Source: Ferroplasma acidarmanus Fer1 (lineage in GTDB: Archaea; Thermoplasmatota; Thermoplasmata; Thermoplasmatales; Thermoplasmataceae). Taken from it: a stretch of 64,000 nt of DNA. The DNA lies in contig NC_021592.1 in NCBI RefSeq assembly GCF_000152265.2, positions 372,001 through 436,000 of the forward strand, written 5' to 3'. This document shows positions 48,990-54,922 of the stretch, piece by piece. Position 1 is the first letter of the stretch, and each line of letters begins with the position of its first letter. The notes below the pieces were generated by a model, which was not told the origin of the DNA, did no database searches, and was given only the letters and a program-made list of their open reading frames with translations. A program made the position numbers and the translations under genes.

Positions 48990-49295
48990 TTACTGGACTA
49001 GACCGGGGAGCTAGGCACTCCCTGTGACCCGTGCCGAAATGCGGGGGCGACTGTCTGGTGAGGGCAACCAGGCCTTTGGCAGTCTTCATGAAATCGTAGA
49101 GTCTCTGTCCTTTTGGATCGGGGGTTTGCATATGCAACTTCAAAGGATGATGCATATACAATCTGTCGGGAAAACCCCGCCAGGCCCGGAAGGGAACACC
49201 GGTATTCCGAACCATCGATGCTGAGAGGGTGCGGGGAGGAGAGGAAGTGGAGGACGCTACCAAAACACCTGGTCTGAACCAGATGTGTCCAGTAT
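48990..49295 (+). ncRNA. Archaeal 7S signal recognition particle RNA
   Basis: The GC-rich transcript is about 305 nt. The SRP54-binding helix 8 is visible at about 49178-49200 with CCAGGCCCGGAAGGGAACA. The 5' CTGGAC (48993-48998) pairs with GTCCAG (49287-49292), and neighbouring AGACC with GGTCT, forming the terminal helix of archaeal SRP RNA. A T-rich promoter element (aatttttttaac) lies 25-30 nt before the 5' end. It guides membrane-protein translation together with SRP54 and SRP19. The ends are approximate. The HD-domain gene starts about 12 nt after it. Confidence 0.95.
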
Positions 49296-50628: not shown

Positions 50629-50713
50629 TGCAGAGGACGGGATTTGAACCCGCGAACTCCTTCGAGACTAGACCCTTAATCTAGCGCCTTTGTCCTAACT
50701 CGGTAACCTCTGC
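50629..50713 (-). tRNA. tRNA-Leu with AAG anticodon (variant)
   Basis: This 85-nt leucine tRNA has a long variable arm. The acceptor GCAGAGG/CCTCTGC, discriminator A, T stem GCGGG/CCCGT with TTCAAAT, and variable arm CTC-GAAG-GAG are normal. The anticodon stem CTAGA/TCTAG is perfect, which leaves loop TTAAGGG and anticodon AAG. Archaeal tRNA-Leu decoding CUY usually has GAG. Position 10 is A (G is usual), mispaired with C25. Both deviations are G-to-A. The gene may be functional, altered or decaying. Confidence 0.85.
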
Positions 50714-50978
50714 CCTTGGGTATTATTTTTAGATATATTAACTTTAATCAAATTTCCAGCGAAAAACCAGAATCAGTATATCCAGAATTGAGTTCCTATC
50801 TATACACTATAATAAAGGATAGTACGTTTCACAATTAATATGTATGTGCCACTACCGTATAATTTTGTAATTAACAACTTTATGAATTAGTCAATATATA
50901 CTGTATTCAGATTTATTCCAATTATACAGGCACAGCGGGAATAAATTTAAACAATTTAGGTTGAAAATGTAGTTTAAA
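50714..50978. other. AT-rich spacer between the copy-2 cassette and tRNA-Leu
   Basis: No gene is visible on either strand. The segment contains the TATA-like ttaatatatc (minus strand) that suits the tRNA-Leu promoter. It ends with a perfect 14-bp palindrome at the stop of the small membrane protein gene. Confidence 0.4.
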
Positions 50979-52249: not shown

Positions 52250-54922
52250 ATGATCAATAGAGATACTTTAGTAATATCTAATCCAGGAACAGGAAAAACA
52301 ACCATGATTTCCAATGAAGTTATTAATCTGATTAAAGAAGGGGTAAAACCGGAAAAAATACTCTGCATCACATTTACAAACAATGCAGTGGGAGAACTCC
52401 AGAAAAGCATTGACAAATTGCTAATTGACAATAAAATTAAGAATGTAACTGCATATGATGTAAACATTTACACATTCCATGCACTGGCATTCCAGGAACT
52501 TTTCCAATCAAAGGCGGAAAAAAATATAGTCTCATATAATATTGCAAGGTACCTTATATATAAGAAACTCAGGGACCTTGAGGCATTCAATTATGGAAGG
52601 GAGTATGTTATAGAAGATATTGTCCCTAAACTGGAAAATGCAATCAGATACATAAAAAGCTTCGGAATTATGCCGGTGGATATAGCAAAAAACAGGGATA
52701 TTATAATGGAATCGCTGAGAAAAAAATACAACTCCGGAATTGTAAGAAATATTGGCCTTGAGGAGGAAGAGTACCTGTTTGATTATTTCTACCAGGCATT
52801 TAATTATTATGAGGAAAATAAAGAAAATCCGGATTTCAATGATTTATTGTTTCAATTCCAGAAACTGGAAGATAAAAAAACATACGAATATGTTTTTGTT
52901 GATGAATTGCAGGATGTTAACGATATAGAATCCAGAATTGCAATGTCTACAGGAAATGTGAAATTTCTGGTGGGCGATAGGAAACAGTCCATATTCGGAT
53001 TTCAGGGGGGCGCATTATCAGTATTTAACTCATTGATTGGAAACAGCGGAATAGAGAAGAAAGACCTGAAGATTAACTACAGAAGCACTGAAACCATACT
53101 GGCTTACTCGAAACAATACTATTTAAAATTCGAAAATGATGTACCGGAACTTGAAAATTTCAGGGGAACGAATAAAAATGGGAATAAAGTAAAAATTGTT
53201 GAAGTAGATTCTCCAGAAGAATCTGTCATGGAAATTATAAATAGCATTCCAGTGTCCAGTGGCAACATAGGAATCATAGCAAGGACAAATTCACAGATAG
53301 ATACTATATCTTCACTTCTGGATAGATATAGTATTGATTATTCAAGTGATTCAAATGTACACACAATAAACCAGGCAAAAAAAGATATAACCGCATTTTT
53401 AAAGGGTATTCTATATGATCGCCCGGATGATATAATTAATGCCATGGTAACACCATTTTCTGGCATATCGCTGAAAGAGGCTTTCAAAATTGCTGAATCA
53501 CTTAGAAGTGAAGAAAACACAATTGATTTATTTGACAGTTCAAATCCATTTTTCTCATTGAGAAATAAAGAACTATCCAGGGAAAATATAATGGACCTCT
53601 TCGAAAGCAGAATATTCCCTATTGCATCGTCAATAAGCAGGGAATATTTCCTTACAGCTGCTACCGTAAAATCATCAATAGGTGAATTTTTTGATGCGGA
53701 ACGTGATTACACACGGAAAAATTTCTTCGATTTTCTGGATTTATCGTATTCTGAAAATTCTAGCAAATCTGGCAATTCAAGGATAATCCTTACCACAGTG
53801 CACAAGGCCAAAGGTCGCGAATTTGACAATGTAATATATCTACCAAAAAAGCCGAGAAAATCAGATACATACATAGATATTATTGTATCTTCTATAATAG
53901 AGGAAATAAAACGGATCAACGTTGATGATGAACTTAAAAACGAGAGCGTCAGAATAGACTTTGTGGCTTTTACAAGGGCAAAAGAGGAGCTCTGGGTGTG
54001 TACAAATCGCAGGGAAGCACCGAATTACCTTATACCTGAATATTCTGAAATGGTTGCCTATGAGAATATTCCCGAGAAACAGGAAGTTACGGTACCGGGA
54101 AAATACAATGAAGCATATTTACAGTTCGTATCAGGTGATTATAATGGCGCTAAGGAGACCCTTTCCAGCAAGGAAAACTGGCTAAAGAATATAATCTACG
54201 AATTTTTCCAGAATAAGAATGTCCTCTCATTTTCTCTTATAAGCATTGAAAACCCGTTTTTCATGCTAAAGAACAATATATTGAAGCTCAATGAAAAAAC
54301 AGATGCTCTGTATTACGGATTAAATGCCCATGAAATGGCGGAATCACTTTATAAAAATGAAATAAAAAATGAACTTCTTGGCAATGTGGATAAACAGATA
54401 CTCTCAAACATAGAATCTGTTGTAAACCAGATAAAATCAGGTTTTAATATGGAGCAGATTGAGGCAGAAGTTTCAGCAATAGCCAGGATAAACCAGATGT
54501 TTGAGGAGTTTTCTGGTCAACCTGATAATATTATGTTTTTCGGCAAAATTGATGCCGTTTTCAGTGACGGAAAGAAATATGTTATCCTGGATTACAAGAC
54601 GGATAAAACCATAGAAAAAGCATCGCACCACAGAGTACAGTTATTAGCATATAAAATCCTCTATTCTATAAAAAATAATATCAACCCTGAAAATATAGAT
54701 ACTGCCATAGGGTATATTAGCATGAGAGGAAAAATAAACACACATGAGAATACATCAGGCCTAATTTATAAACAACCGGACAAGCGTTCTGAAGATTCAT
54801 TGAAAAAATATATATCAAAATTCCTTGAGTATAAAAGCAATCCGGATAAATTTATTGAGGACTATCTTAAGCAACCCAGTGAAGATACATTATATGAAAG
54901 ATTAGCAGAACTTCTAAAATAA
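52250..54922 (+). CDS. UvrD/AddA-like helicase fused to a RecB-type nuclease
   Basis: This is an 890-residue SF1 helicase. Walker A NPGTGKTT lies near residues 11-18, TFTNNAVGELQ near 41-51, VDELQD at 217-222, DRKQSIFGFQGG near 243-254 and TTVHKAKGREFDNV near 516-529, followed by VAFTRAKEELWV. The C-terminal PD-(D/E)XK nuclease has a histidine in NAHEMAESLY near 691, D767 in GKIDAVFSDG, DYKTD near 781-785 and the QLLAYKILY helix. All RecB-family nuclease residues are present. It looks like a stand-alone double-strand-end processing enzyme or defence nuclease, with no AddB or RecC partner nearby. It is divergent from archaeocin copy 2. Confidence 0.85.
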   Translation: MINRDTLVISNPGTGKTTMISNEVINLIKEGVKPEKILCITFTNNAVGELQKSIDKLLIDNKIKNVTAYDVNIYTFHALAFQELFQSKAEKNIVSYNIARYLIYKKLRDLEAFNYGREYVIEDIVPKLENAIRYIKSFGIMPVDIAKNRDIIMESLRKKYNSGIVRNIGLEEEEYLFDYFYQAFNYYEENKENPDFNDLLFQFQKLEDKKTYEYVFVDELQDVNDIESRIAMSTGNVKFLVGDRKQSIFGFQGGALSVFNSLIGNSGIEKKDLKINYRSTETILAYSKQYYLKFENDVPELENFRGTNKNGNKVKIVEVDSPEESVMEIINSIPVSSGNIGIIARTNSQIDTISSLLDRYSIDYSSDSNVHTINQAKKDITAFLKGILYDRPDDIINAMVTPFSGISLKEAFKIAESLRSEENTIDLFDSSNPFFSLRNKELSRENIMDLFESRIFPIASSISREYFLTAATVKSSIGEFFDAERDYTRKNFFDFLDLSYSENSSKSGNSRIILTTVHKAKGREFDNVIYLPKKPRKSDTYIDIIVSSIIEEIKRINVDDELKNESVRIDFVAFTRAKEELWVCTNRREAPNYLIPEYSEMVAYENIPEKQEVTVPGKYNEAYLQFVSGDYNGAKETLSSKENWLKNIIYEFFQNKNVLSFSLISIENPFFMLKNNILKLNEKTDALYYGLNAHEMAESLYKNEIKNELLGNVDKQILSNIESVVNQIKSGFNMEQIEAEVSAIARINQMFEEFSGQPDNIMFFGKIDAVFSDGKKYVILDYKTDKTIEKASHHRVQLLAYKILYSIKNNINPENIDTAIGYISMRGKINTHENTSGLIYKQPDKRSEDSLKKYISKFLEYKSNPDKFIEDYLKQPSEDTLYERLAELLK

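Follow-up and report, generated by a model that had tools for sequence, protein, structure and literature searches.

Fixation of a tRNA-Leu(AAG) gene in place of tRNA-Leu(GAG) in Ferroplasma and Acidiplasma, archaea that may read CUU and CUC with an unmodified A34

Every sampled member of Ferroplasma and Acidiplasma carries a tRNA-Leu gene with the anticodon AAG, which in Ferroplasma acidarmanus Fer1 lies in the stretch of 64,000 nucleotides analysed here (the window; contig NC_021592.1, positions 372,001 to 436,000). We propose, with a probability of roughly 0.6, that a functional Leu-AAG replaced Leu-GAG in these archaea as the sole dedicated reader of the CUY codons, its A34 probably being unmodified and reading U better than C. 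The broader proposition, that a whole free-living archaeal clade reads CUU and CUC with a single A34 tRNA, either unmodified or carrying I34 made by an enzyme unrelated to TadA/ADAT, appears very likely to us. To our knowledge, archaea have been described as possessing neither A34 tRNAs nor an A34 deaminase, and either outcome, if true, would breach the general archaeal decoding rule. Two possibilities are at stake: that archaea are capable of producing I34, or that a tRNA with plain A34 suffices for two codons in a free-living organism whose leucine tRNAs are complete in all other respects. A changed decoding strategy was one of three options offered by the initial annotation of this gene, next to an unusual modification and a decaying gene, and it is supported here.

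The core of the finding, the AAG gene and the missing GAG gene, has been known since 2018, when AAG was reported as present and GAG as absent in F. acidarmanus fer1, and AAG was derived from tRNA-Leu-GAG through a G-to-A change at the first anticodon position (Front Microbiol, PMC6000648). The gene described there is of the same kind and from the same genus, and its gain was termed "species-specific". Here, by contrast, it is found fixed across two genera, with a co-fixed A10, compensatory changes, full exclusion of GAG (13/13) and a single origin beside the GAG-bearing genome G063; the absence of a clade-specific deaminase of the known families and the first test of codon usage are likewise new.

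The gene was called by ARAGORN as tRNA-Leu(aag) on the minus strand, and the Rfam tRNA model RF00005 scored the identical interval at 39.7 bits (cut-off 29), the lowest value among the 44 tRNAs of the genome (Table 1). On the minus strand its sequence begins GCAGAGG TT ACCG AGTTAGGACAA AGGC G CTAGA TTAAGGG TCTAG and continues TCTCGAAGGAGTTC GCGGG TTCAAAT CCCGT CCTCTGC, followed by A73. It folds into the cloverleaf of a class II elongator tRNA-Leu, with a long variable arm, A73, and intact acceptor (GCAGAGG/CCTCTGC), anticodon and T (GCGGG/CCCGT) stems; the sole mismatch of the D stem (ACCG...AGGC) is A10·C25. The anticodon stem CTAGA/TCTAG and the loop TTAAGGG agree with the initial reading of the anticodon as AAG with A34, and the broken D-stem pair claimed at the same time is also seen in the folded sequence. 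That mismatch is real, while A10 itself is less odd than had been claimed, as it also occurs in the Leu-UAA and Leu-CAA tRNAs of the same genome, paired there with U25. An A at this position precludes m2G10. An A10-U25 pair is likewise present in the Leu-AAG of one Acidiplasma-genus genome (L076). In a genome from another family of the order (G039), the tRNA at 1502-1586 of locus L050 is a Leu-GAG that carries A10 paired to T25, and thus A10 exists without A34.

Table 1. Features of the tRNA-Leu(AAG) locus, in window coordinates
Feature	Position	Strand	Evidence and remarks
tRNA-Leu(AAG) gene	50629..50713	-	85 nt, intron-free by ARAGORN; Rfam RF00005; sequence; nine species-level genomes
Anticodon A34-A35-G36 (gene nucleotides 37-39, loop TTAAGGG)	50675..50677	-	ARAGORN, sequence; AAG in 13/13 AAG-clade genomes
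A10 opposite C25 (50686), A·C mismatch in D stem	50704..50704	-	Relatives: G063 G10-C25, L076 A10-U25
TATA-like putative promoter element TTAATATAT, 20-28 bases upstream of the tRNA gene	50733..50741	-	Conserved spacing; function inferred
890-aa neighbour gene, P-loop GKTT motif, helicase-like by eye	52250..54922	+	tblastn; transcribed away from the tRNA; synteny marker in the genus

About 1.3 kb from the tRNA, at window positions 48991-49294 (+), lies an archaeal signal recognition particle RNA (RF01857, 175 bits).

The complete genome (G000; a single contig of 1,935,211 bases) was searched with the Rfam tRNA model, blastn and ARAGORN. Each of the 44 tRNA genes matched by the Rfam model was identified; five are leucine tRNAs (UAG, CAG, UAA, CAA and AAG) and none is Leu-GAG. 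A blastn search with Leu-AAG as the query hit the five genes themselves and a piece of one other tRNA, and nothing further. Leu-UAG and Leu-CAG have been kept, i.e. the other isoacceptors of the box were not lost. Trp-CCA and Pro-GGG are also absent from the 44 Rfam matches, probably because their genes contain introns and were therefore missed.

Within its own genus the gene was found by blastn and ARAGORN in every member sampled (G000-G008). The same 85 nt, including A10 and A34, recur in these nine species-level genomes, although their flanks have diverged and the 890-aa protein encoded beside the tRNA retains just 67.5% identity to the G000 protein in G005 and 58.6% in G007 (tblastn). A sequencing error, raised initially as a possible source of A34, is excluded by this agreement among nine separate genomes, as is chance. 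A pattern search of 400 Thermoplasmata genomes confined AAG to this genus and one other genus in the family (G190, G203 and G240); a further match to the pattern, in G093, contains no tRNA. Scanning a named collection placed Acidiplasma aeolicum strain VT among the AAG genomes and gave an own-genus record, "Ferroplasmaceae archaeon UBA567". The sister genus, which includes A. aeolicum, likewise combines AAG with A10 and shows compensatory changes in the stems. The GAG pattern was found in 0 of the 13 AAG genomes, as against 27 of 28 relatives; the one that lacks it, G012, is a genome of 79% completeness. A second, intact tRNA-Leu(GAG) that could serve as a backup, also considered initially, is thus absent from F. 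acidarmanus and from all 13 AAG genomes.

A tree of 22 proteins of the ribosomal cluster, which was located with L14 as the anchor (4103 columns, LG+G4, seven AAG genomes included), united the AAG genomes in one clade (100% bootstrap), sister to the GAG genome G063 (100%). Leu-AAG is identical to the Leu-GAG of G063 at 73 of 84 positions, G10 and G34 being among the 11 that differ, and to its own paralogues at 64-67 of 85-86; by sequence it is the orthologue of the relatives' Leu-GAG. The two G-to-A changes suggested in the initial annotation are borne out by G063, the nearest GAG relative, which has G at both positions. Since the AAG clade stands beside a GAG genome, G34A happened once, alongside G10A, and the simplest history places both on the same stem branch. 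No synteny between the AAG locus and the GAG gene of G063 was found in the 20 kb compared. Origin from another leucine isoacceptor was considered on account of the variable and T arms, which resemble those of Leu-UAA, and is disfavoured because it is the Leu-GAG of G063 that Leu-AAG matches, in the acceptor, T and anticodon stems as well as in similarity over the whole gene. The Leu-UAA (L070) and Leu-AAG of F. acidarmanus share an identical variable arm, T arm and stretch of adjoining 3' bases (TCTCGAAGGAGTTCGCGGGTTCAAATCCCGTCC), a hint that one gene may have been partly converted by the other.

Our analysis also revealed that the gene is under purifying selection. In the sister genus, the anticodon-stem pair T31-A45 (gene numbering) is replaced by C31-G45, and this paired change, together with the A10-U25 pair mentioned above, shows selection on the folded RNA. 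The TATA-like element TTAATATAT lies at approximately the same distance upstream in nine members of the genus and in three genomes of the sister genus, in the midst of a diverging flank. A decaying or dispensable gene, or an artefact, might be suspected from the low covariance score and the A10·C25 mismatch. This explanation, of which decay had been put forward in the initial annotation, is contradicted by the agreement of nine genomes across a diverged genus, by the compensatory changes in the sister genus, by the conserved promoter-like element and by the missing GAG backup in the 13 genomes, and we regard it as extremely improbable; neither relaxed constraint nor redundancy with an intact copy, the marks of a pseudogene, was observed.

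According to the scenario that we favour, G34A (with G10A) would have turned Leu-GAG into Leu-AAG once, in the lineage from which both Ferroplasma and Acidiplasma descend. Judging from its sequence, Leu-AAG would be transcribed, charged with leucine and used, as the only tRNA dedicated to CUU and CUC. With less certainty, A34 would be left unmodified and pair normally with CUU, and the reading of CUC would depend on an A·C wobble of lesser strength, perhaps with some help from Leu-UAG, which has been kept. A low ancestral use of CUC, such as the GAG sister lineage G063 shows today, may be what made the change tolerable.

The alternative, which is possible but to our mind clearly less probable, is that AAG is matured to IAG by an archaeal deaminase unlike TadA, ADAT or ADAR, and that I34 reads CUU and CUC equally well. 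Searches with the deaminase profiles do not favour it. Proteins above the PF00383 cut-off number one or two per tested genome, in AAG and GAG genomes alike, and PF14437 recovers the same main protein. F. acidarmanus has a single PF00383/PF14437 protein of 172 aa, which scores best with ComEB, although its 116.8 bits fall short of the 219 set for that family, and only weakly with TadA (40 bits, cut-off 150); it is dCMP-deaminase-like and not confined to the AAG clade, the same family being present in GAG relatives. PF02137 (A_deamin), the family of ADAR and ADAT1, gave no match. Thus, no clade-specific TadA- or ADAR-type deaminase was found with PF00383/PF14437 and PF02137 among the genomes tested, and profile searches recognised no TadA/ADAT tRNA-A34 deaminase in F. 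acidarmanus. On the other hand, archaea make m1I57 in tRNA with a deaminase whose gene is still nameless, and by comparison with that enzyme an A34 deaminase may lie outside the known folds.

Codon usage bears on both readings. In genome-wide samples of about 155-265 kb each (100 kb in the case of G028), CTC amounts to about 4-11% of the leucine codons of AAG genomes, and its log odds relative to other NNY families are about -0.4 to -0.55, the same as in most GAG genera. This normal share of CTC indicates that A34 has not driven CUC out, which counts against an unmodified A34 and is explained at least as well by I34. The lowest CTC of all genomes sampled is that of the GAG sister G063 (log odds -1.3), where CTC makes up 0.15 of CTY, as against 0.40 for the other NNY families, despite the presence of Leu-GAG; this scarcity may predate G34A and have eased it. 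In the ribosomal cluster, CTC falls below expectation in AAG genomes (-0.31 [-0.64,-0.12]), compared with +0.10 [-0.06,0.25] in GAG genomes (both intervals from a bootstrap that ignores shared ancestry), and the shift in CUY is the largest difference between the clades among the 16 NNY families in ribosomal-protein genes. The drop is clear in G000 and G007 and absent in two of the five AAG genomes (G005 and G240), and when CTC use was regressed on a C-preference index gene by gene, AAG and GAG genomes were not clearly separated. As I34 would bring no preference for U, the mild avoidance of CTC in ribosomal-protein genes tilts the balance towards an A34 that prefers U to C.

A third way of reading CUC would leave CUU alone to Leu-AAG and assign CUC to Leu-UAG by four-way (super)wobble. 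Leu-UAG is indeed present, and superwobbling of U34 is known from Mollicutes and organelles (PMC3711424). Set against this, the observed share of CUC would be a heavy load for an inefficient mode of decoding, and all other leucine isoacceptors have been kept, unlike in superwobbling genomes. U34 is, moreover, usually modified in archaea. We consider this explanation unlikely.

Decoding by unmodified A34, as we propose it for Leu-AAG, has precedents in other organisms. In E. coli, U is the base read best by unmodified A34, and C is read to a modest extent (PMC11066159); the Salmonella tRNA-Pro with G34A reads its C-ending codon almost like the wild type, and the A34 tRNA-Thr of Mycoplasma reads ACC (PMC3711424). 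The tRNA-Arg(ACG) and tRNA-Thr(AGU) of Mollicutes and mitochondria are similar to the archaeal case in that A34 is encoded and TadA is absent or leaves that tRNA undeaminated (PMC3711424), just as Leu-AAG is accompanied by no recognisable A34 deaminase. They differ in belonging to reduced genomes with one or two tRNAs per four-codon box, whereas the archaea are free-living and have kept the full leucine set except GAG.

The natural parallel on the side of I34 is the Leu-IAG of Lactobacillales (PMC13249217, 2026), where AAG has also replaced GAG in a lineage-specific manner, no family holds both and Leu-UAG is retained. In these bacteria, A34 is deaminated by TadA, I34 equalises the reading of CUU and CUC, which proceeds at similar speed, and leucine usage moves from UUA to CUU/CUC. 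The archaeal switch apparently took place without TadA, and a consistent rise of CUU and CUC at the expense of UUA relative to GAG relatives is not seen, UUA making up 0.16-0.45 of leucine codons in AAG genomes. Some members of Ferroplasma and Acidiplasma can be cultivated, and the decoding of CUC by Leu-AAG is directly testable in them.

Outside this clade, tRNA-Leu(AAG) genes located beside tRNA-Arg(CCT) were observed in two metagenome-assembled genomes of DPANN archaea, a member of Nanohaloarchaeota (L147:2149-2231) and a member of Aenigmatarchaeota (L149:6814-6896); AAG has probably arisen in these archaea as well, as separate cases.
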